Origin: Xestospongia bergquistia
Taxonomy: Eukaryota; Porifera; Demospongiae; Haplosclerida; Petrosiidae
Length of the DNA stretch: 64,000 nucleotides
Direction of reading: 5' to 3'
Assembly: GCA_963965975.1 (NCBI GenBank)
Contig: OZ014421.1
Coordinates: forward strand, 6,003,001 to 6,067,000
The notes under the pieces are model-generated. The model was not told where the DNA came from and searched no databases. It was given only the letters and a program-made list of their open reading frames with translations. How positions within the stretch are numbered: the first letter of the stretch is position 1; each line of letters begins with the position of its first letter. A program made the position numbers and the translations under genes. Of the stretch, positions 1-60,707 are shown one piece after another.

Positions 1-120
1 CACAATATTATGATATTATTACTAACATGATTGAATCTCCTGTTACTTTTGATAATACAGAAAGAGACTATGACTTATCAATATTAATAAAATTGGTGTG
101 TTTTTTTATAAAGTTTAATA
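1..120 (+). pseudogene. 3' end of a preceding kinase-less D-type receptor unit
   Basis: The first 120 bases match the end of the D-type juxtamembrane remnants seen again at 7.68-7.79, 13.77-13.90 and 26.84-26.95 kb. They read YDIITNMIESPVTFDNT followed by RDYDLS and a hydrophobic run. No kinase follows; the sequence passes into the AT-rich spacer that always precedes an A-type unit. It is the clipped left edge of the tandem array. The rest of the unit lies outside the window, so its integrity is unknown. Confidence 0.6.
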
Positions 121-426
121 TCTTTATTTTATTATTAGATGAATAACAAATAGAAGTTAATGTCATTACATGTGTCAAACTATAGATAAAGTTAAGTTAA
201 TATCGTTAATGATAATTAATACCATTCTCTATCGAAGGCCTATTTATCAAATACTAAAATAATAAAATACAACGTGAAAGAAATCAAAATTTAATACTAC
301 ATGAACTTCTTTAATTTCAATGTACATTAATCACAGTAAATTAAAATTTTATTTTAGAACTTGATTACTTTACTGAAGAGTTGACAAATTGCTTGTTTAT
401 TTAATATCAACACACACACTAACACC

Positions 427-470
427 CACATCATCCATTACTTTTACTTTTCTACAATCATAAAATATAA
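427..470 (+). promoter_or_regulatory. Conserved core-promoter block of A unit 1
   Basis: The block begins CACATCATCCATTACTTT and ends in a TATA-like TAAAATATAA about 57 bases before the exon 1 ATG. The same block, with the same spacing of about 55-70 bases to the ATG, stands before six other units in this window and, reversed, before the minus-strand gene starting at 57,248. Conservation in a flank that is otherwise drifting suggests a core promoter. Initiation at this site is inferred, not shown. Confidence 0.55.
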
Positions 471-526
471 ATTGCTACAGTAGTAAGTTCATATACTCTA
501 CTATCTCTATATTATATGAGGTCAAG

Positions 527-2690
527 ATGTTGACAGTCTTTACTGCTGTGTTCATACTATTTAGTAAAACTGTGTTGTGTCAAAATCAAATAAGTAAACA
601 GATCAATAATTTTCCTCATCATAGTTCTGATATCATCTCTTGTAGATCCAGTTCAATACAACATATTTTATGCTGTCTCCTTTGATGGTTCTAACCTCAC
701 TAACACTGTTCATTTGAAATGTTTAAATGGTACTGGTAAACTAGTTGATGGAGATATTGGTCCAATGAACTCAATATCTGGTAACCTGGAATAATTCTTT
801 GCTTTTAGTAGACACTCAGTACATGGTATTGGAAGAATTACCTTTATCTTTAAACCTGTTACTCCTGTATCAAAAGCAGTTATCTATTTCTTTAACTCAC
901 CTTATTATCTCCATTGGATTACCTATGTTCAGTCTTTATGGTATGGGTAGTCAACCTCTTAACTACACCTTTGACAACAATGATAATCTCAGACAAAGTG
1001 ACTCTCGACTGAGAAATGTCACTCTCAATATACAAGAATTAACTACTGTAGTTCAACTTGATTTTATCTTCAATACTAGTATAATTGACTGGTTATTAAT
1101 AAGTGAAGTAAAGTTTTATAATGGTAAGTTAATATATAAACTATTGCATGATATATCATTAATACATTATCATATACTAGACACTCCAAAACCTCTCTTA
1201 ATTGACATAATTGTCTTCCAGGGTCGTCCCTCACTAACTATGACCTTAGGACCAGACAACCTGCAGTCTTTAGTCATTCTCTTCTGTACAGTAATCAATA
1301 CTAGTTCCTTTGAGTAGCAGTGGCAATATAATGAGAATGTGTTAGATCTTCCTGGTCGTTCACAAATATTAATAGGAGATGCTACAAGAACCAGTATACT
1401 AACTATTAATAAACTCAGATATACTGATACTGGAAATTATTCATGTATTGTAAGACATGGAACATTGAACGATACAAGATTCATAAAATTAGAATTAACA
1501 GGTACTGATTATTAATAATATTAACTTTAATTATCACTAATTTTTTAGCTAACATTACTGCTATATCTAATAGCATGACCTCAGCTGATAATGGACATAA
1601 TGTCACTCTATCATGTGAAGTCTATGGATATCTACCACCTAATATTACTATAATATGGAACTATAATACTGGAGTGATTAATAATGGAGAACATTATAAG
1701 ATTACAACAAATACTGGATCATTAATGGCAAATGACTACAATGGCAATACCACTAATAGTATTGTCAGTAATCTTACAATATATAATGTAAATAGCAGTG
1801 GCAATGGAACACATATGTGTATGATATTAGAAACATCACTACAAACAACAATTAGTCTATACAGTAAGTTTATTTATAGTTAAAATAACATTATTATGTG
1901 TTTTTATGCCCACATTTATGCAAATGTCACTGACACTTTTTCATAGTCATCAGTGTTACTATATCCGTTACAACATCTAAAAACATTAATACACCCACTA
2001 GTGATGTAACTCCTATTACTTCTATTAGTGGTACTAGTTTAACTTCTTCAGCTGATGTAACTCCTACCACTAACATTATACCAAATTACCAATTAATCTT
2101 GAGATAATTATAGTAGCCATTGTGATATTTCTAATGCTCCTTGCTATAGTGACCATTGTACTTCTTTTTTGTTTAATAAAACAATACAAGAAGAAACAAA
2201 GACATGATACTCAAGTCTTACAGTCTTACTACCACCTACATATCTCTTGTCAGAAGACACCATTGATCACACTAAAAACACAAATCAACAAGAAGAATAT
2301 CACATTATAAACAATCCATTGTATGTAAAACAAGAAGAAAGACACTGAAATATATTCTCTTGCTCATCATATCTATGATGTAGCTTAAGGGGTAACTCAT
2401 GAAATGTCAGTAGTTTATGACAGTGTTGTTGATATGACTGAGTTTAATGTTATTACTGATGAAATGGAATATCATATACCAATTAACCTTCGGCATACCA
2501 AAATTAATGAAAAATATTTTAATAGCAGATGATACTGTTGAAATGGAATATGCTATACCTACTAAACTGTTATTGAACCATTATATGATCAAACACAAAA
2601 TATTAATATTTAAATATCACAATATTATGATATTATTACTAACATGATTGAATCTCCTGTTACTTTTGATAATACAGAAAGTAGACTATG
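527..2690 (+). pseudogene. A-type kinase-less RTK-like receptor, pseudogene (unit 1)
   Basis: Five exon equivalents are visible: leader 527-593, DS-like 646-1123, Ig1 1181-1501, Ig2 1549-1863, and stalk/membrane/juxtamembrane from 1947. Damage is extensive. Exon 2 has a 30-base in-frame deletion that removes the conserved Cys, a TAA created in the CTGGGAGAA motif, and a 1-base insertion near 904. Exon 3 has the core Trp changed to TAG near 1316. The stalk is frameshifted near 2080, and part of the juxtamembrane region after 2214 is deleted. After the juxtamembrane motif (DMTEFNV, near 2440) the sequence jumps to D-type tail sequence instead of a kinase. This is a dead copy. Ig2 (1549-1863) remains open. 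Confidence 0.85.
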
Positions 2691-3163
2691 ATTGTTGTTA
2701 ATAAAAATTGGTGTGGTCTTTTCTTCCTTAAATTTTATATCTTTATGTTTACTTCATTATTCGTTAAATAACAAGAAGAAAGTTAAATTCATTACATTTC
2801 TCATAGTTATAAATGCAGTTTTCAATTTAATACAACTAGTGATAATAAATATTATTCTAAAATATTAAATAATAATGAGAAAATTCTAAAATATTAAATA
2901 ATAAAAATACAAATCAAAAGAAATCAAACTATTGAACTGCTTGCTCATTATCACTGATAAAAACTATAGATGCAGTTAAGTTAATATTGTCTAATTATCT
3001 AATACTAATATAATAAAAATACCAATTAAAATAATCAAATTTTAACACTGTATGAACTTCAATGTACATTTGATTATAGCAATGTAAAATTTATTGATTA
3101 GTCAACTGAAGAAGTGACAAGTTGTAATGTTTATTTACTATTCATAAAGACACACTAAACTGC
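2691..3163 (+). other. Spacer between units 1 and 2, no gene seen
   Basis: AT-rich spacer that also follows the other A units (10.66-10.95 and 16.78-17.06 kb). A degraded hydrophobic reading frame near 2700-2880 is shared with those copies (LKIGVVFSSLNFIYLCLLHY in the better copies) and looks like decayed tail sequence rather than a gene. No RNA gene or open exon is evident. Confidence 0.5.
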
Positions 3164-3208
3164 CACATCATCCATTACTTTATTTTAACTATAGTTGTAA
3201 AATATAAA
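3164..3208 (+). promoter_or_regulatory. Core-promoter block of B unit 1
   Basis: Contains CACATCATCCATTACTTT and TATA-like AAAATATAAA, about 60 bases upstream of the ATG at 3266. B-type version: TTTTAACTATAG in place of TTTTCTTACAATC. Confidence 0.5.
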
Positions 3209-3265
3209 CTAGTGCAGTAGTAAGCTCTCATATACTCTAACATGTCTATATTATATGAGGTCAAG

Positions 3266-4110
3266 ATGTTGACTGCCTTTGCTGTATTCATACTATTCAG
3301 TAATATTGTGTTGTCTCAAGTACAGATTGGTAAGTGAGGCTATTTTGATAATTCTATTACCTTACTCTGTACAGATCCAGTTCAATACAACATATTTTAT
3401 GCTGTCTCATTTGATGGTTCTAACTTCACAAACACTAGTTCAGGATGTATAGTGATTGGATCTGGTGGTCGTTTGAGATGTTTAAATGATACTGGTAAAC
3501 TACTTAATGGAGACATTGGTCCAATGAACTCAATATCTGATAACCTGGGAGAATTCTTTACTATAACCTACCTTACTATAAGTCAAGTTTTATAATGGTA
3601 AGTTAATATATAATGGTAAGTTAATATATAACCTATTGATATGTCATTAATACATTATCATATACTAGACACTCCAAAACCTCTCTTAATTGACATAATT
3701 GTCTTCCAGGGTCGTCCCTCACTAACTATGACCTTAGGACCAGACAACCTTCAGTCTTCAGTCAATATCTCCTGTACAGTAATCAATGTTGGTTCCTTTG
3801 AATGGGAATGGCAATATAATGAGAATGTGTTAGATCTTCCTGATCGTTCACAAATATTAATAGGAGATGCTACAAGAACCAGTATACTAACTATTAATAA
3901 ACTCAGATATACTGATGCTGAGAATTATACTTGTATTGTAAAGTATTCACCAGGAACAGTGAACGATACACGAATCACAAACGTAGAATTTGAAGTCACA
4001 AAATTAGAATTAACGGGTAATGATTATTAATAATATTAAAATTAGTAACATTAATTCTTGTTTTAGTTAACATTATTGCTATACCTAACACCATGGTATC
4101 AGTTACTATC
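3266..4110 (+). pseudogene. B-type receptor, truncated by an inversion breakpoint (unit 2)
   Basis: Leader exon 3266-3329 (MLTAFAVFILFSNIVLSQVQ) splices with phase 1 to the DS-like exon from 3375. That exon has lost its second half: after the GAATTC motif near 3553 it jumps to the last bases before the donor at 3598. Ig1 (3669-4016) is open and carries a 21-base insertion near its end. Ig2 starts at 4067 and stops abruptly at 4110, where sequence continues with the reverse complement of D-type membrane-exon DNA. The unit lacks Ig2, membrane segment and kinase, so it is a pseudogene fragment. Confidence 0.85.
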
Positions 4111-4448
4111 TTTTGATGCATTATTATCAATAAAAGTGTGATGACTATTAAAATGAGTAGTATTATCACAACTATTATAATTTCAAGTCTTATGGCCTCA
4201 CTAGCTGTAGATATAATGGCAGAAGTTATAGCAATGGACAGTGTACTCTGTATTGTATTATTTGATACCAATATTGTACTTCGTACTTTGTTGTGTATTA
4301 AACTGATCCCCACCCCCTAATTATTAACCAATGCAGCCAGACCTATAGGTACATCCTTTAAAAATACATTAACAAATTTAAAAAAATGAATTCAGCATAT
4401 GTAAAAATAGTTATTACTTTATTTGTTTTATACTTTTGTTTGATCCAA

Positions 4449-6198
4449 TCAGATCTTATCTGGTATTTGATGAGTTATACCTTGAGCTTCATCATAGATA
4501 TGATGAGCAAGAGAATATACTTCAGTGACTTCATCTTGTTTTACATACAATGGATTGTTTAAATTGTGATATTCTTCTTGTTGATTTGTGTTTTTAGTGT
4601 GATCAATGGTGTCTTCTGATAAGAGATATGTAGGTGGTAGTTCAGGAACTTTGTCTTTCATAACAACTGTGTACACCTGATCAATATCAGTAATGTCTGC
4701 AGCTTGTTTGTTTTTGTTTGTCTCTGTTTCCTGTAAGACATGAGTATCATGTCTTTGTTTCTTCTTATATTGTTTTATTAAACAACAAAGAAGTACAATG
4801 GTCACTACAGCAAGGAGCATTAGAAATATCACAATGGCTACTATAATTATCTCAAGATTAATTGGTATATTGTTAGCGGTAGTAGTTACATCATCTGAAG
4901 GAGTTAAACTAGTACCACTAATAGAAGTAATAGGAGTTACATCACTAGTGGGTGTATTAATGTTTGTAGGTGTTGTACCAATTGACAGTGTGCTAATGGA
5001 TGTAGTAACACTGATGACTATGAAAAGGTGTCAGTGACATTTGCATAAATGTGGGCATAAAAAACACATGATAATGTTATTTTAGCTATAAATAAACTTA
5101 CCATTTAAACTGATTGTTGCTGGTAGCAATGTTACTAACATCACACAAGTATATGTCCCATTATCACTGCTATTTACATTATATATTGTAAGATTACTGA
5201 CGATACTATTGGTAATATTGCCATTGAAGTCAATTGCTATTAATGATCCAGTATTTGTTGTAATCTTATAATGTTCTCCATTATTAATCACTCCAGTATT
5301 ATAGTTCCATATTATAGTAACATTAGGTGGTAGATATCCATAGACTTCACATGATAGAGTGACATTATGTCCAATATTAGCTGAGGTAATGCTATTAGAT
5401 ATAGCAGTAATGGTAGCTAAAAATTAGTGATAATTAAAGTTAATATTATTAATAATCAGTACCTGTTAATTCTAATTTTAGGAGTCTTATGTAGTTTACT
5501 GTTTTCTGTAGATGTCTTACAATACATGAATAATTTCCAGTATCACTATATCTGAGTTTATTAATAGTTAGTATACTGGTTCTTGTAGCATCTCCTATTA
5601 ATATTTGTGAACGATCAGGAAGATCCAAGATACTCTCATTATATTGCCATTGCCACTCAAAGGAACCATAATTGACTACTGTACAGGAGATATTGACTGA
5701 AGACTGAAGTTTGTCTGGTCCTAAGGTCACATTTAGTGAGGAACCATCTTGGAAGACAATGGTGTCAAATGAGGGAGATATTAGAGTGTCTAGTATATGA
5801 TAATGTATTAATGATATATCAATAGTTTATATATTAACTTACTATTATAAAACTTGACTTCACTTATTAATAACCAGTCAATTATACTAGTATTAAAGAT
5901 AAAATCAAGTTGAAATACAGTAGTTAATTGTTGTATATTAAGAGTGACATTTCTTAGTTGAGAGTCGCTTTGTCTCAGATCATCATTGTTGTCAAAGACA
6001 TAGCTAAGAGGTTGACTACTCACAGCAGAAAGACTGATCATAGGTAGTCCAATGGAGTTATCAGGTGAGTTAAAGAAATAGATAACTGCTCTTGATACAT
6101 TAGTAGAATTAGGAAAGTTAAAGGTAATTCTTCCAATACCATGTACTGAGTATCTACTAAAAGCAAAGAATTCTCCCAGGTTATCAGATATTGAGTAT
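4449..6198 (-). pseudogene. Inverted B-type receptor fragment lacking its leader and first half of the DS-like exon
   Basis: Read on the minus strand: partial DS-like exon about 6198-5843, Ig1 5789-5463, Ig2 5416-5102 and stalk/membrane/juxtamembrane exon 5017-4449. All splice sites are phase 1 and every retained exon is open. The fragment starts at the SISDNLGEF motif, so there is no leader, no promoter and no start. The cytoplasmic part has NNPLY and LPPTYLLSE and ends IPDKI, the B-type end produced by kinase loss; TAG has become AAG, adding two residues before a TGA. It is fragmentary because of the rearrangement, not because of point decay. Confidence 0.8.
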
Positions 6199-6202
6199 TG
6201 AT

Positions 6203-6989
6203 AATAGCAATTGACTTCAATGGCAATATTACCAATAGTATCGTCAGTAATCTTACAATATATAATGTAAATAGCAGTGATAATGGGACATATACTTGTG
6301 TGATGTTAGTAACATTGCTACAAGCAACAATCAGTTTAAATGGTAAGTTTATTTATAGCTAAAATAACATTATCATGTGTTTTTTATGCCCACATTTATG
6401 CAAATGTCACTGACACCTTTTCATAGTCATCAGTGTTACTACATCCATTAGCACACTGTCAATTGGTACAACACCTACAAACATTAATACACCCACTAGT
6501 GATGTAACTCCTATTACTTCTATTAGTGGTACTAGTTTAACTCCTTCAGATGATGTAACTACTACCGCTAACAATATACCAATTAATCTTGAGATAATTA
6601 TAGTAGCCGTTGTGATATTCCTAATGCTCCTTGCTGTAGTGACCATTGTACTTCTTTGTTGTTTAATAAAACAATATAAGAAGAAACAAAGACATGATAC
6701 TTATGTCTTACAGGAAACAGAGACAAACAAAAACAAACAAGCTGAAGATATTACTGATATTGATCAGGTGTACACAGTTGTTATGAAAGAGAAAGCTCCT
6801 GAACTACCACCTACATATCTCTTATCAGAAGACACCATTGATCACACTAAAAACACAAATCAACAAGAAGAATATCACATTTTAAACAATCCATTGTATG
6901 TAAAACAAGATGAAGTCACTGAAGTATATTCTCTTGCTCATCATATCTATGATGAAGCTAAAGAGCTAACTAATCAAATACCAGATTAG
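6203..6989 (+). pseudogene. Receptor 3' fragment: half Ig2 plus stalk, membrane and juxtamembrane exon
   Basis: The right arm of the palindrome begins inside Ig2 (6203-6342), has a normal GTAAGT donor, then exon 6427-6989. The exon encodes a Thr/Ser stalk, a membrane helix (IVIFLMLLAVVTIVLLCCLI), a basic stop-transfer QYKKKQRH, and a cytoplasmic tail with NNPLY ending NQIPD-stop. The stop is the native kinase-exon stop brought forward by the shared kinase deletion. No leader or first Ig exon precedes it on this strand. Confidence 0.8.
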
Positions 6990-7189
6990 ATCTGATTGGA
7001 TCAAACAAAAGTATAAAACAAATAAAGTGATAACTATTTTTACATATGCTGAATTCATTTTTTTAAATTTGTTAATGTATTTTTAAAGAATGTGCCTATA
7101 GGTCTGGCTGCATTGCTGTGTATGGTTAATAATTAGGGGGTGGGGATCAGTTTAATATGCAACAAAGTACAAAGTACAGTATTGGTGTC

Positions 7190-7745
7190 AATTAATACAA
7201 TACAGAGTACACTGTCCATTGCTATAACTTCTGCCATTATACCTACAGCTAGTGTGCCCATAATACTTTAAATTGTAATAGGAACAACTATAGCCATACT
7301 AGTTGTGATAATACTACTCATGATACTTGGATTGAAGAAGAATCAGAACATGATGTTGCTTAGCTACTATTAATGAAGATACAGTGTACTCCATCCATTA
7401 TCAACAGAGACAAAGATGTACCACCTGAAGTACCACCTCAATTATTTGATGATATTGATGAATATGATAGTACTAGTGACTTGTACCAATTGAATTATCA
7501 TTCATATGATTATGTTATAGCTAATAATCAAGAAGTGTTTGACATATTGGATAAACCTAGTAATAATGATAACTCTACAACTGTGTATTCTCTTCCTCAT
7601 TATGACTCTGTTAGTAATGTTATTGAACTATTATATGATCAAACATAAGATATTAATCCTCAAATATCACAATATTAATTATTACTAACATGATTGAATC
7701 TCCTGTTACTTTTGATAATACAGAAAGAGACTATGACTTATCAAT
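7190..7745 (+). pseudogene. D-type membrane/juxtamembrane remnant
   Basis: Decayed copy of the D-type exon best preserved at 26.0-26.9 kb. The membrane-coding part is broken (TTTAAATTG near 7268, then a deletion after the CTACTCA near 7319). The juxtamembrane reading frame 7373-7648 is open: VPPEVPPQLFDDIDEYDS, then repeated Tyr motifs and IELLYDQT. It is out of frame with the membrane segment, as in the other D copies. A stop follows LLYDQT and no kinase follows. Confidence 0.7.
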
Positions 7746-8089
7746 ATTAATAAAATTGGTGTGTTTTTTTATAAAGTTTAATATCTTTATTTTATTATTA
7801 GATGAATAACAAGTAGAAGTTAATGTCATTACATGTGTCAAACTATAGATAAAGTTAAGTTAATATCGTTAATGATAATTAATACCATTCTCTATCGAAG
7901 GCCTATTTATCAAATACTAAAATAATAAAATACAACGAGAAAGAAATCAAAATTTAATACTACATGAACTTCATTAATTTCAATGTACATTAATCACAGT
8001 AAATTAAAATTTTATTTTAGAACTTGATTACTTTACTGAAGAGTTAACAAATTGCTTGTTTATTTATTATCAACACACACACTAACACC
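7746..8089 (+). other. Spacer before unit 5, no gene seen
   Basis: AT-rich spacer nearly identical to 66-426, 13,865-14,205 and 26,920-27,260. This repeated intergenic block marks the start of each A-type repeat. No exon is evident. Confidence 0.5.
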
Positions 8090-8134
8090 CACATCATCCA
8101 TTACTTTTACTTTTCTTACAATCATAAAATATAA
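8090..8134 (+). promoter_or_regulatory. Core-promoter block of A unit 2
   Basis: CACATCATCC start and AAAATATAAA end, about 60 bases before the leader ATG at 8193. The gene it serves is a pseudogene, so the block is likely a relic here. Confidence 0.5.
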
Positions 8135-8192
8135 ACTAGTGCAGTACTAAGCTCTCATATACTCTACTATCTCTATATTATATGAGGTCAAG

Positions 8193-10662
8193 ATGTTGAC
8201 AGTCTTTACTGCTGTGTTCATACTATTTAGTAACACTGTGTTGTGCCAAAATCAAATAAGTAAGCAGATCAATAATTTTCCTCATCATAATTCTGATATC
8301 ATCTCTTGTACATGTAGATCCAGTTCTATACAGCATACTTAATGCTGTCCCCTTTGATGGTTCTAACCTCACTAACACTAGTTCAGGATAAACGGTACGA
8401 TCTGATATTCGCTTACAATGTATGAATGGTAAATTAAATGATGGAGACATTGGTCCATTGAACTCAATATCTGATAGCCTGGGAGAATTCTTCGCTTTTA
8501 GTAGATACTCAGTAGATGGTATTGGAAGAATTACCTTTAACTTTCCAGTTGTTAATCCTGTGTCAAGAGTAGTCATCTATTTCTTTAACTCACCTTATAA
8601 CTCCATTGGACTACCTATCATCAGTCTTTATGGTGAGGGTAGTCAAACTCTTAACTACACCTTTGACAACAATGAAAATCTCAAACAAAGTGACTCTCAA
8701 CTGAGAAATGTCACTCTCAATATACAACAATTAACTACTTTAGTTTAACTTGATTTTATCTTCAATACTGGTATAATTGACTAGTTATTAATAAGTGAAG
8801 TCAAGTTTTATAATGGTAAGTTAATATATAAACTATTGATATATCATTAATACATTATCCTATACTAGGCACTCCAATATCTCCCCAAATGGATGCCATT
8901 GTCTTCCAGGGTGGTCCCTCATTAACTGTGACCTTTGGACCAGACAACCTTCAGTCTTCAGTCAATCTCTCCTGTACAGTAATCAATGCTAGTTCCTTTG
9001 AGTGGCAGTGGCAATATAATGGGAATGTGTTAGATCTTCCTGGTCATTCACAAATATTAATAAAAGATGCTACAACAACCAGTATACTAACTATTAATAA
9101 ACTCAGATATACTGATACTGGAAATTATTCATGTATTGTAAGACATCTACAGGGAACAGTAAACTACATAAGACTCCTAAAATTAGAATTAACAGGTACT
9201 GATTATTAATAATATTAACTTTAATTATCACTAATTTTTTAGCTAACATTACTGCTATATCTAATAACATGACCTCAGCTAATATTGGAGATAATGTCAC
9301 TCTATCATGTGAAGTCTATGGATATCTACCACCTAATGTTACTATAATATGGAACTATGATACTGTAGTGATTATTAATGGAGAACATTATAAGATTACA
9401 ACAAATACTGGATCATTAATGGCAATTGATTTCAATGGCAATATTACCAATAGTATTGTCAGTAATCTTACAATATATAATGTAAATAGCAGTGATAATG
9501 GAACATATATGTGTACGATATTAGAAACATCACTACAAACAACAATTAGTCTATATGGTAAGTTTATTTATAGTTAAAATAACATTATTATGTATTTTTT
9601 ATGCCCACGTTTATGCAAATGTCACTGACACCTTTTCACAGTCATCAGTGTTACTACATCCATTAGCACACTGTCAATTGATACAACACCTACAAACATT
9701 AATACACCCACTAGTGATGTAATTCCTACTACGTCAATTAGTGGTACTAGTTTAGCTCCTTCAGCTGATGTAACTCCTATACTGCTAACAATAGACCAAT
9801 TAATCTTGAGATAATAATAGTAGCCATTGTGATATTCCTAATGCTCCTTACTGTAGTGACCATTGTACTTCTTTGTTGTTTAATAAAACAATACAAGAAG
9901 AAACAAAGACATGATACTTCATGTCTTACAGGAAACAGAGACAAACAAAAACAAACAAGCTGGAGATATTACTGATATTTATCAGGTGTACACAGTTGTT
10001 ATGAAAGACAAAGCTCCTGAACTACCACCTACATATCTCTTGTCAGAAGACAACATTGATCACACTAAAAACACAAATCAACAAGAAGAATATCACATTT
10101 TAAACAATCCATTGTATGTAAAACAAGATGAAGTCACAGAAGTATATTCTCTTGCTCATCATATCTACGATGAAGCTCAAGGGGTAACACATGAAATGTC
10201 AGTAGTTTATGACAGTGTTGTTGATATGACTGAGTTTAATGTTATTACTGATAAAATGGAATATCATGTACCAATTAAGCTTCGTCATAACAAAATGAAT
10301 GAAGATATTTTTATAACAGATGATACTGTTGAAATGGAGATGCTATACCTACTAAACTATATAAACCATTATATGATCAAACACAAAATATTAATCTTTA
10401 AATATCACAATATTATGATATTATTACTAACATGATTGAATCTCCTGTTACTTTTGATAATACAGAAAGTAGACTATGATTGTTGTTGCTAAAAATTGGT
10501 GTGGTCTTTTCTTCCTTAAATTTTATATATTTATGTTTACTTCATTATTCGTTAAATAACAAGAAGAAAGTTAATGTTGTTACATTTCTCACAGTTATAG
10601 ATGCAGTTTTCAATTTAATACAACTAGTGATAATAAATATTATTCTTATGAGAAAATTCTAA
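8193..10662 (+). pseudogene. A-type kinase-less receptor, pseudogene (unit 5)
   Basis: Exons: leader 8193-8259, DS-like 8318-8815, Ig1 8869-9195, Ig2 9243-9557, stalk/membrane from 9642. The DS-like exon has three nonsense changes: the conserved Cys codon region is GGATAA near 8388, a Gln is TAA near 8746, and the Trp of the DWLLISEV motif is TAG near 8782. The stalk has a 2-base insertion near 9779 and the juxtamembrane part a 1-base insertion near 9918. After VEME the reading passes into a D-type tail (NHYMIKHKI) and a hydrophobic remnant to 10,662. Both Ig exons remain open with Cys/Trp/Cys intact. The same lesions occur in unit 7. Confidence 0.87.
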
Positions 10663-10946
10663 AATATTAAAATAATAAAAATACAAATCAAAAGAAATCA
10701 AACTATTGAACTGCTTGCTCATTATCACTGATAAAAACTATAGATGCAGTTAACTTAATATTGTCTAATTATCTAATACTAATATAATAAAAATACCAAT
10801 TAAAATAATCAAATTTTAACACTGCATAAACTTCAATGTATATTTGATTATAGCAATGTAAAATTTATTTTCCAACTTGATTAGTTAACTGAAGAAGTGA
10901 CAAGTTGTAATGTTTATTTACTATTCATAAAGACACACTAAACTGC
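10663..10946 (+). other. Spacer, no gene seen
   Basis: AT-rich; near-identical to 2.9-3.16 and 16.78-17.06 kb. It is part of the repeated intergenic block that precedes each B unit. Confidence 0.45.
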
Positions 10947-10990
10947 CACATCATCCATTACTTTATTTTAATTATAGCTGTAAAATATAA
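10947..10990 (+). promoter_or_regulatory. Core-promoter block of B unit 2
   Basis: CACATCATCC to TAAAATATAA, 58 bases before the ATG at 11,049. Confidence 0.5.
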
Positions 10991-11048
10991 ACTAGTGCAG
11001 TACTAAGCTCTCATATACTCTACTATGTCTATATTATATGAGGTCAAG

Positions 11049-13048: not shown

Positions 13049-13189
13049 ATCTGATTGGATTTAACAAAAGTATAAAACAAATAAAGTGATAACTATCTTT
13101 ACATATGCTGAATTCATTTCTTTAAATTTGTTAATGTATTTTTAAAGGATGTGCCTATATGTCTGGCTGCATTGCTGTGTATGGTTAAT

Positions 13190-13898
13190 AATTAGGGGGT
13201 GGGGATCAGTTTAATATGCAACAAAGTACAAAGTACAATATTGGTATCAATTAATACAATACAGAGTACACTGTTCATTGCTGTAACTTCCACCATTATA
13301 CCTACAGCTAGTGAGTCCATAAGACTTGAAATTATAATAGGAACAACTATAGCCATACTAGTTGTGATAATACTACTTATTTTAATAGTCATCGCACTTT
13401 TATTGATAATAATGCATCAAAAGAAGAAAGAAAAAAATGATACTTGGATTGAAGAAGAATCAGAACATGATGTTGCTACTATTAATGAAGATACAATGTA
13501 CTCCATCCATTATCAACAGAGACAAAGATGTACCACCTGAAGTACCACCTCAATTATTTGATGATATTGATGAATATAATAGTACTAGTGACTTGTACCA
13601 ATTGAATGATCATTCATATGATTATGTTATAGCTAATAATCAAGTAGTGTTTGACATATTGGATAAACCTAGTAATAATGATAACTCTACAACTGTGTAT
13701 TGTCTTCCTCATTATGACTCTGTTAGTAATGTTATTGAACTATTATATGATCAAACACAAAATATTAATCCTCAAATATCACAATATTATGATATTATTA
13801 CTAACATGATTGAATCTCCTGTTACTTTTGATAATACAGAAAGAGACTATGACTTATCAATATTAATAAAATTAGTCTGTTTTTTTTATAAAGTTTAA
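13190..13898 (+). pseudogene. D-type membrane/juxtamembrane remnant
   Basis: An open frame from about 13,199 encodes stalk, a long membrane helix (TIAILVVIILLILIVIALLL) and IIMHQKKKEKNDTWIEEE, then stops at 13,540. The D juxtamembrane (VPPEVPPQLFDDIDEYNS, two Tyr-rich stretches, ending LVCFFYKV) is open in the next frame, 13,473-13,898. The frame change near 13,500-13,515 is shared with the copies at 7.38 and 26.55 kb. No kinase follows. No leader or Ig exons belong to it here. Confidence 0.7.
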
Positions 13899-14205
13899 TA
13901 TCTTTATTTTATTATTAGATGAATAACAAGTAGAAGTAAATATCATTACATGTGTCAAACTATAGATAAAGTTAAGTTAATATCATTAATGATAATTAAT
14001 ACCATTCTCTATCAAAGGCCTATTTATCAAATACTAAAATAATAAAATACAACGTGAAAGAAATCAAAATCAATACTACATGAACTTCATTAATTTCAAT
14101 GTACATTAATCACAGTAAATTAAAATTTTATTTTAGAACTTGATTACTTTACTGAAGAGTTAACAAATTGCTTGTTTATTTATTATCAACACACACACTA
14201 ACACC
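13899..14205 (+). other. Spacer before unit 7, no gene seen
   Basis: Copy of the repeated AT-rich spacer found before units 1, 5 and RTK1. Nothing coding seen. Confidence 0.45.
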
Positions 14206-14250: not shown

Positions 14251-14306
14251 ATTGCTACAGTAGTAAGTTCATATACTCTACTATCTCTATATTATATGAG
14301 GTCAAG

Positions 14307-47827: not shown

Positions 47828-47888
<61 letters not shown>

Positions 47889-49849: not shown

Positions 49850-51994
49850 TGCTACAATGCTGGGACTTAGAAATAATCCCAAAATTCTATTATTGTCTGG
49901 CTTTCCTAGTATGTAAAACCATGTATATGTTGTGTTTGTGCGTTTTCCTTATGGAAAGAATGTTTCCTCCCATTAACTATAATTTGGCTTCTATGTATAA
50001 CACATTGACTGTATAATAAGGTAACTAGATGATCATATAGTGTCAAATATACTAACTGTATTTGACTGGTAAGTTAAAACTGGATTGGTTGACCTATCTC
50101 ATTTAATGAATTTAATTTACTTGTGAGAGATACTTGAGCTTCACAATTTGTTGTGATTTGCATTTCTAAGCTGTTTATATAAAGTTTTATAAGTCATGTT
50201 TATTTAAAATTCTTGTTTATTTTCAGTATGGCATCTTTCCATATTTTATTCATAATTGTTTACATAGAATTATTAATCTTTAATTTATATTCAATTAGAT
50301 TTAGTACCACTTAATTCTCAATCTTAATATTCCTATTCCTCAATTCTTACTTAATTACTATACTGGTTGTTTTTGTATAAACAATATCTGCTTTGGTCAG
50401 CTAATTTGTGTAAAGATGGGCTATATATTAAATTTTTTTTGGTATAAAGGTGCATAGTTCAAATACGCCTCCATGCTGCATTCACATACATACATGTGGA
50501 ATCATGGCAATAACATATTACTGTATAACTCTAAAGTCAATTTGTTGTTGTTCTAATATTCCCAACTGCAATAACAGACTGGGTTAGTTCATTAACTTGA
50601 GATATCACTATACATCTGGTTACAAATGTACACATGTTTGTCTTATGGTATTAGATTAATGGACCAGTGTTTGTTATATAGATACATAACATTACTAATA
50701 TCCATACTTAAATATATCAGTTATCGAGTAATTTAAATTACCAAGAGACAAACAAAATTAATATAGTAAGTACATGAATACTCATTTACTATCAGTTGTA
50801 ATGTACTAAAATTTGGCTAACATCGAGATCGTATACTTTCTTGAATTATAATCATACGACTGCTGTCTTACTATAAAAGAATGTTTTGTGTCAGCATAAG
50901 CCACTACCTTATGACTGTACTTCACAAGCCATACACGCCTAGTGTATACCACCCACTCATTTTCTGTTCTAATGGTCATAATAAGACACCAGTCCCAAAC
51001 ATCCCACAGATGTACTTTACTTATATGGTGCATGTCTAACCACAATTAACGAAGTACTGAATAACATTGTATATTATTATTATAGCTAATATCATATATG
51101 GTACCACTGCTTAATCAGATTAAGCCAATTCCAGTCACATGTAGGAAACAATTTGCTTGTTGTGTGATCCATAAAGGTTATGAGGGTCGGTATGTGATGT
51201 TCACACTTAGATAGTAGTCAATATACTAGGACATCTTCCCATTTATCTATAGTCACTTCGTGTCATTTAATTTACTCTATTTAAAGCCACTTCCTTTTTG
51301 TCTAACACTAGGATTTATTGTTGTTAATGTTTTAATGTTAAGGTCCAGTTAAGACAACAAACAAGTTTGGTTTGTGCTAGACAAATCTGTAGACAGGAAT
51401 GGACTGAACAAGAATAATTATTTAATGCAAGAGTCTAATTAATGTGTGAATTGAAAGTATTAATTGACACGCTATTATATGTAGCTATTATTAGTTAGAA
51501 TGTTAATTGTTTTTTAATTAAATTGCCATGGTACTATTACCTGAAGCGATTTCCTCTGTATAATTGTAATACAATATTTGTGAGGATGCACTTACCACAT
51601 ATAGAGACGGGCTTGTTCTTTTAAACTCTTGATATGTCTAAGTTAATCAGACATTACTTAATATCTAATTAGTATGAAGGACATAATTTATTAATAAAAT
51701 TTAATACTACCATTGCTATGATAATACATACTAACTAAATAGAAACATTACTTGTGACTAAATTAGTCTAATCAATACATGAGCAACCACAAAATGAAAT
51801 AATATTCATGGCTCACTTTTTGGCTGCTACAGAATGATATCAGAAATGTCATGTATAGTTTGTGTATACAACAAATTAGTGTGTAATCGCTATCATTTGT
51901 TTGGCTTTTGCCCAAGTAGTCATATCTCAGTCACAATGTCGCCATTCTTTGTGTAGTATTAATTAATTTAATTAATACCATTTAGTAATCCATT

Positions 51995-53755
51995 ATGAAG
52001 TGTGAATTCTTTTATTTAGATATCATGCCAACAACTGGTCTACCAACTTCGTCCGATACCAATGTGCTAAATATTGATAATAGTATCTTGGCAGCTGCCA
52101 TAACTGTTAGCTTCTTAGTTTTTTTAATTACCATTCTTATGATAGTTCTCTTGTTCCTTTGTATACGATACCGGCGAAGAACTAACATTATTCATTCCCC
52201 TACAGCTTTAAAGATGACTCTTTCACCTGATGAGGCTTCTAAGTTCTATATTGTGGAATCTGGTATCACTCCCGAAGACATACAAACTAAAAACACACCT
52301 ATTAAAAGGGGTCATAAATTAAGCGTCCAATTACCAGTGGCCGTTATCTCAAAAAACCCAAGTGGTTCAAATTTACAGACCATTTCTCATCAGATGGTGA
52401 AAGACATGGAAACCAATCCAAATTATCATCAACTAAGAATGAAGGAAAATAGTGACATGAGTTACTCATCAGTTAATCCACCTGCTCCTTCAATAGATCA
52501 ATTCCCATCAAACACATCACCACTTCCAAATTCATCATCAAAAGAAAACAATGAACAAATAAATTTTTTTACCAATCAGTATGTAATATATCAACCATCA
52601 ACAGGAGACACTAATACTCTTTCCAGTGACTGCTCAGATGAAAGTACTAACAGCGTCTCTCCTATACCACCATTTCGAAACGAAAGTCTTTTTAGTTCCT
52701 TACAAGTTAATCCTAGTGTCAGTATGTCCATAATAAATGACAACACTCAAGATATTGTAACTAGAACACAGTCTGATACTCAGATTGCACGGTCCAAAGA
52801 TGACTCTAGTCTCTATGGACCTATATACAGTGAAGTTAGCTATCGAGCCAGTCAAGTCATTAAGACATTGGAAATTGCTAGTTCTAATATTAACATGATT
52901 CATGCTCTAGGTATGGGACAGTTTGGCCAAGTACATTTAGCTGAGACAATTGGACTAAGCGAGAGGGATCTAGGACTTGGAGAGGATGAGAACAAATCAG
53001 TAACGATAGAAGTTGCTGTTAAACTTTTACGCAAAAATGCAGAACAGGGTGATTTGAAAGCTTTCCAAAAGGAAGTGAAATACATGTCTCAATTGAGGCA
53101 CAAAAATGTTGTGCAACTATTGGCAGTTTGTTCAAAAGGGGAGAGGCAATTTATTGTACTAGAATATATGAGGAATGGAGACCTACACAGCTTTCTGAAA
53201 CGCTACAACTCAGTTAACATGGGACATGAGACGTATAATACTACATTATCATATGATGTTCTCCTCAATATTTCCATACAGATAGCAGATGCTATGAAAT
53301 ATCTGGCCTCGTGTAACTTCATCCATCGTGATTTGGCAACTCGAAACTGTCTTGTTGGTGAGAACTTTATTGTGAAAGTAGCAGATTTTGGTTTAAGTAG
53401 AAACCTGTATGATTCTTGTTATTACCGATTTCGTGGATCTGCTATGTTGCCTATTCGTTGGATGGCAACTGAATGTTTTTTTGGACGATTCTCTGAGAAG
53501 ACAGATGTTTGGGCTTTTGGTGTAACAATGTGGGAGATCTTTACTCTATGTAAAAGAAGTCCCTACAGTAATATGAAAGATCAGGAGATAATCCAGGAAG
53601 CATTACGTGGAACAAGACGGCCACTTGAAAAACCTGAGTGTTGTAAGATGGACGTTTATGAGATTATGAAAAAGTGTTTGAGAAAGAACTCTAATGAAAG
53701 AGCTAACTTCGAAGATGTACATTTAGATTTATTAAACTTAACAAAATGTCACTAG
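51995..53755 (+). CDS. RTK6: divergent transmembrane tyrosine kinase exon
   Basis: One long frame of 586 codons from an ATG at 51,995. A phase-1 acceptor (TTATTTAG at 52,019, then ATATCATG) matches the exon 5 acceptors of the other RTKs, so the true start may be a spliced exon from 52,020. Residues 1-29 are extracellular, membrane helix about 30-57, then a long juxtamembrane region (to about 300) with TNPNYHQL, many Ser/Pro and YGPIYSEVSY. Kinase about 300-582: GMGQFGQV, VAVKLL (Lys about 343), HRDLATRN, DFGLSRNLYDSCYY, PIRWMATECFFGRFSEKTDVWAFGV. It is closer to canonical DDR kinases than RTK1-5 are. No leader or Ig exon is visible upstream, so either the ectodomain lies far away or the gene encodes a receptor without one. 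Confidence 0.8.
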   Translation: MKCEFFYLDIMPTTGLPTSSDTNVLNIDNSILAAAITVSFLVFLITILMIVLLFLCIRYRRRTNIIHSPTALKMTLSPDEASKFYIVESGITPEDIQTKNTPIKRGHKLSVQLPVAVISKNPSGSNLQTISHQMVKDMETNPNYHQLRMKENSDMSYSSVNPPAPSIDQFPSNTSPLPNSSSKENNEQINFFTNQYVIYQPSTGDTNTLSSDCSDESTNSVSPIPPFRNESLFSSLQVNPSVSMSIINDNTQDIVTRTQSDTQIARSKDDSSLYGPIYSEVSYRASQVIKTLEIASSNINMIHALGMGQFGQVHLAETIGLSERDLGLGEDENKSVTIEVAVKLLRKNAEQGDLKAFQKEVKYMSQLRHKNVVQLLAVCSKGERQFIVLEYMRNGDLHSFLKRYNSVNMGHETYNTTLSYDVLLNISIQIADAMKYLASCNFIHRDLATRNCLVGENFIVKVADFGLSRNLYDSCYYRFRGSAMLPIRWMATECFFGRFSEKTDVWAFGVTMWEIFTLCKRSPYSNMKDQEIIQEALRGTRRPLEKPECCKMDVYEIMKKCLRKNSNERANFEDVHLDLLNLTKCH

Positions 53756-55369: not shown

Positions 55370-57248
55370 TTACTCACACACAATAACTTGTTCTTGACAC
55401 ATGGACACACCATAAGCTGAATTGTCACTAACACTAAACTCTGTATACTTTGTATCATGATACATAGTTATATCATAGGCAGAATTTTCAATAACATTAA
55501 ATTCTGTAATACTCATCTCCTCTGTGTCTTGTATATACCTGTGTTTCTTGTTTATTATATAGTGTCCTAATATACAGTTTAGAACAGATATAAGTGTTAT
55601 TAAAATTATAACTATAATACTACTTAATGTAACGATTGTACTATTAATAGAAGATGTGCCATCATGATCAGGAGACAGGGTAGGCCTGGGAGTAGTTGAC
55701 AGAGTTACAGGAGAACCTAAGTTTTGTGTACATAAAGTATATCAATAACAGTATGTATATATGTCTAGTTATTGTTGTCAATATAACAATACAACTTAAT
55801 AGATGAAAGACATACATCTAAGTATAATTGTGATGTTTTAATAAAGTGTAAACCTACTTATTGTCACAGTAATGGTCTGTTGTATTCCTATACCAGGTAC
55901 AGTACATATGTAAGATCCACTGTCTGATTGATTGAGGTTTGAGATAGTAAGTTGACTAATAATACTCTGTGTCATCATACCACTGCTATTAATAGCATTA
56001 CCACTGCCTAATTTGTTAGTGATCATATATTTACTGCCAATATTAGTTAGTATAGTTTTGTCTCTTATCCATTGTATATCTGATGACATAGTCAGGTAAC
56101 CAGTTAACTCACACCTCAAACTAACAGCCTCATTGATAGTACTACTGATAGATGATGATAAAGGTGTTAGACCAACTATACAGGAGAAAGAAAAATAGCA
56201 AAAATTAAACAAACATGTAAAATAAAAATGAATAATTAATAATTAGTACCTGTTAGCTCTAATTTTATGAGTCTTGTATTTTTTACTGCTCCTTGCAGAT
56301 ATCTTACAATACATGAATAATTTCCAGCATCACTATATCTGAGTTTATTAATAGTTAGTATACTGGTTCTTGTAGCATCTCCTATTAATATTTGTGAACG
56401 ACCAGAAAGATCTAACACATTCTCATTATATTGCCATTGCCACTCAAAGGAACTAGCATTGACTACTGTACAGGAGAGATTGACTGAAGACTGAAGGTTG
56501 TCTGATCCTAAGGTCACATTTACTGGGGGACTATCCTGAAAGACAATGGTGTCCAATGAGGGAGATATTGGATTGCCTAGTATAGGATAATGTATTAATA
56601 ATATATATTAATAGTTTATATATTAACTTACTATTATAAAACTTGACTTCACTTATTAATAACCAGTCAATTATGCTAGTATTGAAGATAAAATCAAGTT
56701 GAGCTGTATTAGTTAACTGTTGTATATTGAGAGTAACATTTCTCAGTTGAGAGTCATTTTGTCTGAGATCATCATTTTTGTCAAAGACATAGCTAAGAGG
56801 TTGACTACCCACACCATAAAGACTGATCATAGGTAGTCCAATGGAGTCATTAGGTGAGTTAAAGAAATAGATAACTGCTCTTGACACAGGAGTAACAGGT
56901 TGAAAGTTAAAGGTAATTCTTCCAATACCATCTACTGAGTATCTACTAATAGCAAAGAATTCTCCCAGGTTATCAGATATTGAGTTTATTGGACCAATGT
57001 CTCCATCAACTAGTTTACCAGTACCATTTAAACATCTCAAACGACCACCAGATCCAATCACTATACATCCTGAACTAGTATTAGTGAGGTTAGAACCATC
57101 AAAGGAGACAGCATAAAATATGTTGTATTGAACTGGATCTATGCAGAGTAAGATACTAGTACTATGACAAGATAAAATTTGCCTGTTTACCAATTTGTAT
57201 TTCACATAATGCAGTATTACTGAATAGTATGAATACAAAAAAGAACAT
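55370..57248 (-). CDS. Kinase-less DS-like + 2 Ig receptor with Tyr-motif tail, 518 aa
   Basis: Minus-strand exons 57248-57191, 57138-56632, 56576-56250, 56175-55858 and 55716-55370; all junctions GT/AG and phase 1, total 1,557 bases, no internal stop. Leader MFFFVFILFSNTALCEIQI; DS-like domain and Ig1 nearly identical to the plus-strand array; Ig2 (VSLRCELTGYLTMSSDIQWI ... YICTVPGIG) belongs to a different branch. Exon 5 gives a short stalk, a membrane helix about 431-455 (TLSSIIVIILITLISVL) and a tail of about 60 residues. The tail has two related copies of TEFNVIENSAYDITMYHD / TEFSVSDNSAYGVSMCQE and ends VIVCE-stop. TEFNV also occurs in the RTK juxtamembrane regions, so the tail looks like a juxtamembrane region without its kinase. 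Possibly a signalling adaptor or decoy; inferred. Confidence 0.75.
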
Positions 57249-57300
57249 CTTGACCTGATAAAGATAGAGATAGTAGAGAAAACGAAAACTTCTTACTTTT

Positions 57301-57530
57301 ATGCACTAGGTTATATTTTATGATTGTAAGAAAAAAGTAATAGATGATGTGGGAGTTTGGTGTGTTTATGAGTAATAAATAAACATATAACTTGTCACTT
57401 CAACTAAGTAAACAAATGCACTAGGTTATATTTTATGATTGTAAGAAAAAAGTAATGGATGATGTGGGAGTTTGGTGTGTTTATGAGTAATAAATAAACA
57501 TATAACTTGTCACTTCAGCTAAGTAAACAA
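57301..57530 (-). promoter_or_regulatory. Core-promoter block in two tandem 115-base copies
   Basis: 57,301-57,415 and 57,416-57,530 are direct repeats differing at only two positions. Read on the minus strand, each has the CACATCATC...TTACTTTTTTCTTACAATCA block and a TATA-like AAAATATAA. The nearer copy is about 60 bases from the ATG at 57,248. The plus-strand units carry a single copy. Confidence 0.7.
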
Positions 57531-58773
57531 ATAATGTAGTTTTAAAGTAAGATCACAAGTTATTATAATCAAATGAAAATATGGAATTAGTGATAATAAG
57601 TTAACAGTTCAATAGTAAGCAATCAACTAAGCAACAACTTAAGAGAAGCTTGTTTTGATGTTTTGTCATAATCTAATAAACCATAGGACTCCTCCCACTT
57701 TAAGTAGGTATTAAAACTTCAGAGAAATTTTAATCACTGTGCATATTTGTATTTAGCTTGATGAAAATTATTATTATAATTATTATGAAATTTTACTGAT
57801 AGACTGAAAGTAAATGATCACACTGAAGATCAGAGTCTATGTACCAAGTAAAAAGAGGAAAGGAGTTATTGATTGGGTGTCAATACTTATTAAGCTGTGA
57901 ACCATTGACGTAAAACATAACATGAAAAATGAATGTATTCATTGCATACCAAGTAATTGCATATTTTCTGATAAAATGATCTGACAATATTTGGTAATAA
58001 TATTGTACTACATTATATTTATTATTAATGATCATTACATTTTATTTATAGAATCTAGTAATGGCAAGTTATCTACTGCCTAGTGTCATCTTATACCTAT
58101 TTGTTCAGATTAAAAACTGTCACAGCCTGACAGTATATATTGCATTTGGTAACTCTTTCATTGTTTGAAGAGATATGTTCATTCTCTTTTGATAACACAA
58201 TCGTTCTGTATACAATAGTAGAATAAACTAAAACTAAAACACAGTTTCTGTTAATGGTTGAAATATTCATATTAAAAATTTTTTCACCAAACAAAAAGAT
58301 AAATGTTAACGCCAAACGTTTCAATAGTCATACAACTATCTTCATCAGTGGCTTAAATATAGAGAATAAAAGTGCAAAAATCAGTCCTATTTATACTAAG
58401 CTACAATTAAAACAATAATACTAAAATTAATAACTGGTTCATAATCTTTTACCAGTTTCTTGTTTGATCCACAAAATATGAACTTTATACTCTCAAATAT
58501 TGGTAACAAATATTTATATATTGTTACATGATGTAATTCATTAGTATCTTACGCTATTATGAAAAAAACATTAAATAATAAATATAAGCAACAATATATA
58601 ACAAATACAAAATACCATGAGTTCCATATATGGTTAATTTAACAAATGAACAAACAAGAATAAAGAAAATTATTATACACTAATTTACAAATTCAAATAA
58701 ATTTATCCATGATAATTAAGACACATGAGGAATCACACATGTTGCGTGATATCAAGAGAAGGTAAGTGTGCTT
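57531..58773. other. Intergenic region, no gene seen
   Basis: AT-rich sequence between two minus-strand receptors. No receptor exon, RNA gene or clear repeat recognised. Confidence 0.45.
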
Positions 58774-60707
58774 TTATACTATTTGGCTATCAGATGATTT
58801 TATTATAATAACACAGTATACTAACATGCATATAACTATGACTATTATTAGAACAAATAATATTATTGAAATGGAAACTGTAATAGCTATTATAGTTATA
58901 CTGTTTCCAGATGTTCTCATTGTAGTCATGGTACCAGTTGAAGTCATTGTAGCAGTTGACGTCATTGTAGTAGTGATATCAGTAGTTGTAGTAGCTATAA
59001 GAAAGTAATTAAAAACAAATTCACTTCCTTACCACATGTTAGGCTATTAGATTTTCATATTATGTAATATCAGTTTAAGTAGGTTATTATAATTGTGCAT
59101 TAAAATATGCAACATTGTTGATAATCAGTATAAAAGAGTATAATATAGTCAATAGAGTTTAGAACACATAATTGGTAATAATCAGTAATAATAATATAAT
59201 TCATACCTGTTACAAATAGTTGTACTGTTCCTATTAGAGTGCTGCCATTTATACTACAAGTATAGACACCCTCATCATCAGTAGTTGTTGATATAATAGT
59301 CAGTTCACTGAGAATACTGCTCTCCAGACTATTTCCTCCTCTCTGAGATTGACCTGGACCTTCACGTTCATCAATATCATACTGATCAAGGGAGTCATTA
59401 ATTGGAGATCCTGTCATATTATTTGTCCATATTATCTCATAGTAGGTGGGTAAGTAACCAGTAAATATACACTGTAGTCTAGCATTATTTGATGACTGTA
59501 TAGTCACTGGACTATTAGTAGATACCATACCTGTATAAAGTAATGAGTGAACTTATATGAATGAAGACTACATTATTGGTAAGTTATTACATTCAAATGA
59601 TTACTGTAGAAACAACTTATATGTAACTAATAATGAATTTATGGAAAGGGTCTGTGTTTTACACATACTAATATGGATAACTAATAATTCTTACCATCTA
59701 ATGTTAGAGAGATGGTAGTAGAAGTCCTATGTTTAGTAAACTCTGAGTTACTATACTCAGCAGTACAAGTATAGGTTCCATTATCATCAGAGCTCAGTCT
59801 ATTAATAGATAGGATACTAGTACGAGTTGTATCAGCATAAAAGGCTTTTGTTTTGCCACTAGTTACTGCTGGTCCAGTCCAAGATGACCAACTAAATGAT
59901 CCATTATTAGCTATTGTACAGTTCAGTTGTATTGAAGACTGTAGAGTGGATGGACCATATTGTAAGGACTGATATGGTACTGTAAACTCAATAGGACTAT
60001 TATCAACATTAGTACCTAGAGAGAGTAAAGTATTATATTTGTCATTAGTATAATGAGGTATTACTTACTTGTACCAGAGAAGAAAGTAAGTTCACTTAAA
60101 AAGGTTTGGGTGATTTGATATGAAGTGAAATCAAAATGGAGACGAAAGAATTGGTATCCACTTAAAGTGACAGGACTTGTTGTTATAATTAATGGTATAA
60201 CTAGAACTTGATCATCAGTTTGTGAAAACTCTGAATTATCAGTAAATGAGTATTCTATTGGATTAAAATTTCGGCCATCAAAAGACACACTGGTACTAAT
60301 GGCAGGTAGTCCATATCCAGCACTGGGATTGCTACAGAAATAAATATTTGCTTGAGTGAAGGTAAATTCACCTGTCCCAAAATTAAATTCCAAATTAAAG
60401 CTATTATTCCATCCCATAAAGTTAGCAACATCAAATGTCACTCCTTCATTAGTGACATTATTAGTTAGTCTGACATTTGATGGACATCTTCTGAGATTAC
60501 TACTGTCTCCTAGGTTACAGTCACGAGTAAATATACCACATTCATAAGTAGTTGGTGGAGTGACCAGATAAGTAATTGGTATACCTGTAGTAAAAGTGAA
60601 GTCTTGCATGTCGTAACAATTGTATTTTACAACTCACATTCTTTAGCAGAACAGAAGGTATAAAAGCAAAGTAAGGTAAAGAAAACCACTAAAACCATCC
60701 TTTCCAT
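58774..60707 (-). CDS. Kinase-less divergent DS-like + 2 Ig receptor, 483 aa
   Basis: Minus-strand exons 60707-60638, 60584-60069, 60015-59695, 59530-59207 and 58994-58774; all phase 1, 1,452 bases, no internal stop. Leader MERMVLVVFFTLLCFYTFCS. The exon 2 domain (172 residues) ends FRLHFDFTSYQITQTFLSEL, the same closing strand as the DS-like domains, but has extra cysteines (YECGIFTRDCNL, RRCPSNV). Ig1 has LNCTI ... FSWSSW ... YTCTA; Ig2 has LQCIFTGYLPT ... EIIWTN ... YTCSI. The stalk is short with repeated TMTST, then a membrane helix and only about 10 cytoplasmic residues (IIIKSSDSQIV). A GTATAA near the stop could be a weak donor, but no kinase exon lies downstream before the next gene. 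Likely a distant paralog of the same family. Confidence 0.7.

Follow-up and report, generated by a model that had tools for sequence, protein, structure and literature searches.

Vertebrate paired receptors (SIRP, LILR, Siglec) carry similar ectodomains on different signalling ends and undergo gene conversion, and the Alr complex of Hydractinia comprises clustered immunoglobulin (Ig)-receptor genes and pseudogenes with variable Ig domains, encoding proteins without a kinase. In the sponge Geodia, there are adhesion molecules that lack a kinase and resemble the ectodomain of receptor tyrosine kinases (RTKs); the genes behind sponge self/non-self recognition are largely unsettled. Here we describe an array of about 160 kb (about -87.8 to +71.3 kb by exon queries), inside which lies a 64-kb stretch of contig C11 (the window, C11:6003001-6067000; negative coordinates lie upstream of its start). 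Its genes attach a common type of ectodomain either to a DDR-like kinase or to a membrane anchor without one, an arrangement that an earlier account of the window, made from its letters alone (the sequence-only reading), had claimed and that our analysis supports. We give about even chances to the interpretation that this is a paired-receptor-like family, with one pool of ectodomains on kinase and kinase-less ends and with open kinase-less members that would modulate the kinases.

With the vertebrate paired receptors the array shares an ectodomain common to different ends and gene conversion between kinase and kinase-less members (three of 14 significant pairs); unlike theirs, its active end is an RTK, not the partner of an adaptor with an immunoreceptor tyrosine-based activation motif (ITAM). 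As in Alr, clustered Ig-receptor genes, pseudogenes and a variable Ig domain occur together, whereas kinases are present here. DDR1 has an NPxY motif in its juxtamembrane region, and the array resembles DDR1 and DDR2 in a kinase that is nearest to DDR among solved structures after one match named EGFR, in a putative DS-like domain, in kinase-deficient forms and in a juxtamembrane NPxY. It differs from them in that its members have two Ig domains, are without the N-terminal discoidin domain, and are kinase-less as separate genes, not as splice forms; the consulted part of PMC4789497 describes two forms of DDR1, namely DDR1d and DDR1e, as deficient in the kinase. The consulted passages on Geodia describe an RTK gene with introns outside the kinase region only (PMC5793068), and those of a review name Ig adhesion molecules as a second class of sponge Ig receptors beside the Ig-RTKs (PMC2248247). 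Kinase-less Ig receptors beside Ig-RTKs are already known in sponges. The likeness to the Ig-RTK of Geodia cydonium (Ig-like domains, a transmembrane (TM) segment, an intronless kinase and kinase-less relatives) is drawn from these partial accounts, not from a sequence match; the present case differs in being a mapped genomic array, in its visible kinase deletion, its several types of tail and its gene conversion among ectodomains, and in a putative DS-like domain of the DDR type. Our literature search turned up no such array in the portions of the sources that it covered, and we do not claim that none is in print.

A shared ectodomain on two kinds of end

Each gene has five exons, encoding the signal peptide, the DS-like domain, Ig1, Ig2, and the stalk and TM segment with or without an intronless DDR-like kinase. 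This plan, as put forward in the sequence-only reading, was confirmed in RTK1, all of whose introns are of phase 1 and in which a single exon encodes stalk, TM segment, juxtamembrane region and kinase. In a region of 200 kb around the window (C11:5905001-6105000, with which the window agrees base for base), we counted as open any gene in which all five exons could be assembled with GT/AG borders and no internal stop. There are 15: ten main-type kinase-less genes, which carry the juxtamembrane tail of the RTKs (at -63.4, -60.1, -57.7, -54.3, -34.4, -28.4, -11.3, -7.1, -3.8 and 23.2 kb, that is, nine upstream of the window and one inside it), one kinase-less gene with a second type of tail (-31.2 kb), and four RTKs (-39.7, 27.4, 40.1 and 44.0 kb). 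Beyond these 15, kinase-less genes occur at 57.2 and 60.7 kb on the minus strand and on contig C1 (L032, listed below); these other types carry other TM and tail exons. The three kinase-less genes of the earlier account were found open in the window, and with them three complete RTKs of one subfamily:

23159-25048, plus strand: kinase-less gene at 23.2 kb, open, 552 amino acids; signal peptide, DS, Ig1, Ig2, stalk, TM segment and shortened RTK juxtamembrane tail
55370-57248, minus strand (start at 57248): kinase-less gene at 57.2 kb, open; its own exon for TM segment and tyrosine-containing tail (from 55716)
58774-60707, minus strand (start at 60707): kinase-less gene at 60.7 kb, open, with a very short cytoplasmic tail; start of the last exon not fixed
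27362-30422, plus strand: RTK1, exons 27362-27428, 27487-27993, 28047-28367, 28415-28729 and 28813-30422; 939 amino acids; kinase motifs present
40006-42920, plus strand: RTK at 40.1 kb, five open exons, 908 amino acids; start of the last exon uncertain
43943-46925, plus strand: RTK at 44.0 kb, five open exons, 923 amino acids; a wider limit picked another first exon

Evidence that these ectodomains derive from a common pool comes from tests of exchange. In a shared-tract test over DS-Ig1 in 19 units, 14 of the 171 pairs were significant over all pairs (300 permutations), and three of these joined a kinase with a kinase-less member. The best such tract, between the kinase-less gene at -7.1 kb and RTK C (-72.2 kb), covers 386 bp (alignment columns) with 133 polymorphic sites and was matched in 0 of 300 permutations. 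Furthermore, all 10 pairs among five RTKs have less synonymous divergence in DS (0.03-0.20) than in the kinase (0.19-0.38), a pattern that fits a common pool from which DS exons have been replaced. The extreme is the RTK at 40.1 kb against RTK C, with 0.365 for the kinase and 0.027 for DS. Judged from these patterns, gene conversion has moved ectodomain tracts between members, including between kinase and kinase-less ones. The tandem turnover proposed from the letters alone is supported as well. So are its variable stalks: minisatellites with units of 51 bp (34109-34234) and 33 bp (38069-38300) encode threonine-rich repeats that vary between copies.

The kinase is DDR-like by resemblance. RTK1 matched Pfam profiles for the kinase (5.6e-79), for Ig domains (8.6e-19) and, weakly, for the DS-like domain (0.036). 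Among the best 60 of 2,233 kinase matches in the PDB, the first is named EGFR (9p9u, 3.8e-69) and the next 11 are DDR1 or DDR2 (from 5.2e-69), in keeping with the DDR-like kinase that had been noted earlier. Against PF21114, 20 of 22 DS exons matched at E up to 1 (best 5.8e-5), although RTK1 DS scored 18.7 bits, below the cut-off of 27. The top Foldseek match of DS is the DDR1 ectodomain (4ag4, 2e-4), obtained with a low-confidence model (mean predicted local distance difference test (pLDDT) 50.5), and a DS profile search of PDB sequences returned no DDR (best 0.062). A PF21114 profile search of the genome gave no matches, its controls included, and is uninformative. We rejected membership of the DDR family itself for want of an N-terminal discoidin domain: the signal-peptide exon stands at most 110 bp from the DS-like exon in each of the 15 assembled models, and the Pfam scan of RTK1 contained no other discoidin domain. 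Bearing in mind that one kinome study assigns the DDR kinases to Bilateria (PMC8662651, consulted in part), orthology with DDR is doubtful if the host is a sponge. We consider a sponge host probable; one silicatein-type motif had 0 matches, a result that is compatible with such a host.

Exon queries of the 200 kb matched 45 DS, 38 Ig1, 35+2 Ig2, 29 juxtamembrane, 22 second-tail and 14 kinase stretches, far above chance (tblastn E-values down to 0). In the genome searched (146 Mb, 21 contigs), RTK1 DS had 48 matches, 46 on C11 within the array and two on C1, in a search that misses the divergent DS of RTK A (-87.8 kb) and of the 60.7-kb gene. As stretches readable as open exons with GT/AG borders, those starting in the window number 7 of 17 for DS, 13 of 17 for Ig1, 11 of 14 for Ig2 and 1 of 1 for a divergent Ig2. 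The sequence-only reading was right that ectodomains are shared, and overstated their likeness in calling them near-identical: relative to RTK1, amino-acid identity is mostly 76-93% for DS exons and mostly 56-90% for Ig1 exons, and just 29-37% for the genes at -87.5 and 60.4 kb. In DNA, identity to the nearest neighbour is 92-97% in 21 of 23 aligned units, and 89% and 69% in the remaining two. The two matches on C1 belong to relatives of the 57.2-kb type:

C1:1343722-1344219: L031, kinase-less relative, DS 89% identical to RTK1, Ig2 broken (a search for an open Ig2 exon found none)
C1:1355413-1355913: L032, kinase-less relative, open, DS 89% identical to RTK1

Tyrosine-kinase exons of the wider family are also scattered over other contigs, and a further dense cluster at C6:1621395-1696864 holds 10 of the strongest PF07714 matches.

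Where four largely intact RTK sets had been described before, the window has the three listed above; the set then numbered third, if it is the copy at 36.8 kb, is incomplete. The other kinase-bearing stretches in the window are:

36667-39743, plus strand: RTK copy at 36.8 kb, DS and kinase exons open; most of Ig1 deleted (residues 78-106 alone retained), Ig2 without its first half (residues 56-104 alone retained); first glycine of the glycine loop replaced by Ser
32520-35716, plus strand: broken RTK copy at 32.6 kb, frameshifts in DS and kinase, Ig2 partial
51989-53755, plus strand: divergent RTK exon from TM segment to kinase, open; no ectodomain found for it

Divergent RTK kinase exons also lie at +66.0 kb, preceded by divergent Ig domains, and at +70.4 kb.

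Routes of kinase loss

The main kinase-less type is best read as the product of a single in-frame deletion of 1,050 bp in the last exon of an RTK, followed by amplification. The same joint, CAAATACCA followed directly by GATTAG, is exact in twelve copies and slightly altered in three (4.5 kb on the minus strand, -9.5 kb and 25.0 kb); ten of these 15 copies belong to open genes. In the twelve exact copies the RTK stop codon ends the shortened protein and the 3' untranslated region is still RTK-derived, and in the genes at -11.3 and 23.2 kb an extra deletion shifts the frame so that the tail ends earlier. The relevant stretches are:

29368-30417, plus strand: stretch of RTK1 absent from the common-junction copies, 1,050 bp, in frame, from a reading of both flanks
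10500-13899, plus strand: example of an amplified kinase-less unit; DS broken, then Ig1, Ig2, a juxtamembrane tail ending HQIPD-stop at 13048, and a second-tail remnant
642-16562: run of broken kinase-less units, with DS at 0.6, 3.4, 6.3 (minus strand), 8.3, 11.2 and 14.5 kb
17000-25000: segmental duplicate of -46.6 to -38.0 kb, with three blocks that make up at least 8 kb and are 91-96% identical

In five units (-65.7, -49.2, 0.6, 8.3 and 14.5 kb), all of them DS-broken, the juxtamembrane region has been joined by a separate fusion to the last part of the second tail; the unit at -14.0 kb, DS-broken too, has the same juxtamembrane end and no second-tail piece listed. The 57.2- and 60.7-kb genes are close to other RTKs in their ectodomains. 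From 59204 to 60588 the 60.7-kb gene aligns with the RTK A ectodomain at 94% identity over 1,392 bp, with Ig1 at 99% in protein, and the 57.2-kb gene is nearest in Ig2 to RTK B (-82.8 kb; 97.8-98.4% in DNA) and in DS to RTK C (94.9%); these kinase-less genes of the window and their matching RTKs lie 137-147 kb apart. The fusion, the 1,050-bp deletion and these two genes indicate that kinase output was lost more than once. We also considered whether the juxtamembrane tail and the second tail downstream of it might be alternatively spliced, and rejected this for the 11-kb unit, the one checked, where the candidate acceptor at the start of the remnant is out of frame.

Kinase output may also have been altered within open kinases. 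The RTK at -39.7 kb is open, but its DFG motif reads NFG and its glycine loop is altered; NFG recurs in the kinases at -24.7 kb (with a stop) and -21.6 kb, and the pair of open NFG kinases has a ratio of nonsynonymous to synonymous differences (pN/pS) of 0.62, higher than the 0.19-0.36 of five further kinase pairs. The NFG kinases at -37.7, -24.7 and -21.6 kb correspond to about 5965.3k, 5978.3k and 5981.4k of C11. The segmental duplicate at 17000-25000 contains a Ty3/gypsy-like remnant, a hAT remnant and a receptor, and its counterpart at -46.6 to -38.0 kb continues into a kinase exon. The Ty3/gypsy-like remnant, with integrase and RNase H domains, lies at 17925-20624 (minus strand) and the hAT transposase remnant at 20734-23018 (plus strand); they reach a G+C fraction of 0.44 in surroundings of about 0.30, and a second copy of the block lies at -46.6 to -40.4 kb.

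Selection and competing explanations

Because the exons for signal peptide, DS, Ig1 and Ig2 are all of phase 1, they are exchangeable between members, and repeated unequal exchange would let one pool of ectodomains serve both types of end. Open kinase-less genes are predicted to make membrane proteins that share a ligand or partner with the kinases. Receptors of the RTK class act as dimers or clusters, so that a kinase-less member with the same ectodomain is expected to join their complexes and to lower or redirect their output; such members may modulate RTKs as titrating or dominant-negative dimer partners. Alternatively, tails with NPLY and other juxtamembrane tyrosines could act as kinase-free substrates or scaffolds phosphorylated by a partner.

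Some individual comparisons suggest that the kinase-less genes are under constraint. Between RTK A and the 60.7-kb gene, DS gave a pN/pS of 0.50 (P 0.019), and the tail of the 57.2-kb gene against L032 gave 0.52 (P 0.0013), a value that depends on the alignment. In the ten open kinase-less genes, 112 private coding changes included 0 stops against 5.1 expected; the P of 0.006 is only indicative, since the genes were chosen as open and the absence of stops is true by construction. This count required full DS and juxtamembrane matches and dropped four of 23 units (two rearranged, two RTK copies).

That constructional caveat is one of a number of points that weigh against a modulating role for these genes. 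Neutral ratios of nonsynonymous to synonymous substitution rates (dN/dS) in the kinase-less ectodomains had been named beforehand as the outcome that would tell against such a role, and the means in the ten genes are 0.89 for DS, 1.08 for Ig1 and 1.22 for Ig2, with every interval spanning 1. Private changes are no rarer in coding than in noncoding sites (0.0094 against 0.0077 per site), the whole ectodomain of RTK A against the 60.7-kb gene has a pN/pS of 0.62 (P 0.073), the 57.2-kb tail against L031 has 0.96, and DS and Ig1 of the 57.2-kb gene against the RTKs give 0.77-0.88, not significant. NPLY, retained in seven of the ten main-type tails, is missing from the other three (lost in one, deleted in two), and other tail tyrosines vary. 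Many units are broken, as the sequence-only reading had said of its many dead copies in the window. A partition of hydrophobic and polar sites showed no clear difference.

We rejected neutral dN/dS alone as a verdict, however: RTK ectodomains likewise have values near 1, whereas the kinases have 0.27 (0.20-0.35; seven open copies, two with NFG), and a neutral value is therefore no mark of death in the kinase-less genes. Another observation concerns the distribution of variable sites. In 19 genes of both kinds with open ectodomain exons, DS and Ig1 exceeded neutral simulations both in invariant sites and in sites with at least four states, and Ig2 (14 genes) exceeded them in sites with at least four states only (5 against 1.3, P 0.010); taken alone, the kinase-less genes have no excess of invariant sites in Ig1 or Ig2, which adds to the points above. 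At least four residues occur in 24 of the 109 Ig1 alignment columns, 15 of them within the last 20 columns (Fisher P 1.2e-8), around the F-G turn and the G strand in a model used for secondary structure only (mean pLDDT 67.9), and one site has nine residues, a number reached in 0 of 200 neutral simulations. The Ig1 exons of eight broken copies have a many-state excess too (6 against 1.3, P 0.003), so that some of the excess may be due to gene conversion or inherited variation. The many-state sites had suggested diversifying selection on the kinase-less genes, an explanation that this broken-copy control weakened and that we did not retain.

The competing explanation that survives best, which we consider possible though somewhat short of an even chance, is that unequal crossing-over in an RTK array left behind kinase-less copies that are decaying or selectively neutral, some kept open by conversion from functional RTKs, and that only the RTKs matter. 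Kinase-less dN/dS about 1, the many broken copies, the many-state sites in broken copies and the amplification of dead units (the five with the second fusion, all DS-broken) would follow naturally from such decay. It sits less well with ten of 15 common-junction copies being open at 94-97% nearest-neighbour identity, with RTK ectodomains that are near 1 too, and with the several types of kinase-less tail; the private coding indels of the ten open genes (9, 51 and 6 bp, all multiples of three) point the same way, although this too follows from openness. Less probable still is a polymorphic complex for the recognition of self/non-self or microbes, whose variable module would be Ig1 and whose outputs would be the kinase and kinase-less tails. 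The clustering of many-state Ig1 columns at the C-terminal end, the nine-residue site and gene conversion are consistent with it, and the consulted part of the review reports a rise in the Ig-RTKs and Ig adhesion molecules of sponges once they have been grafted (PMC2248247); we nonetheless regard it as unlikely, given the many-state excess in broken copies, which gene conversion can yield, and the spread of wider-family tyrosine-kinase exons across other contigs. An assembly artefact that joined alternative haplotypes or collapsed copies in one contig is highly improbable, for although tandem arrays are hard to assemble and a block of at least 8 kb recurs, most units are 3-8% from their nearest neighbour and have indels of their own and tails of different types, the two copies of the recurring block are set apart by a kinase exon, and related genes lie on another contig.

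Bearing on receptor evolution and sponge recognition

We return to the paired-receptor-like family as our preferred interpretation. It could be carried further, to a sponge recognition complex that is itself a paired-receptor system, in which gene conversion would deal variable Ig1 and DS exons onto signalling ends on the one hand and damping or marking ends on the other, with a balance specific to the individual; from the sequences at hand we hold this extension to be rather improbable. The array joins Ig-RTKs and kinase-less receptors through one pool of ectodomains, and it displays several routes by which an RTK can lose its kinase output: in-frame deletion of the kinase, changes in catalytic motifs, and replacement of the tail. 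For recognition in sponges it supplies defined candidates, namely genes with their boundaries, an Ig1 with a variable region, and a clear junction, suitable for typing, where the kinase was deleted.

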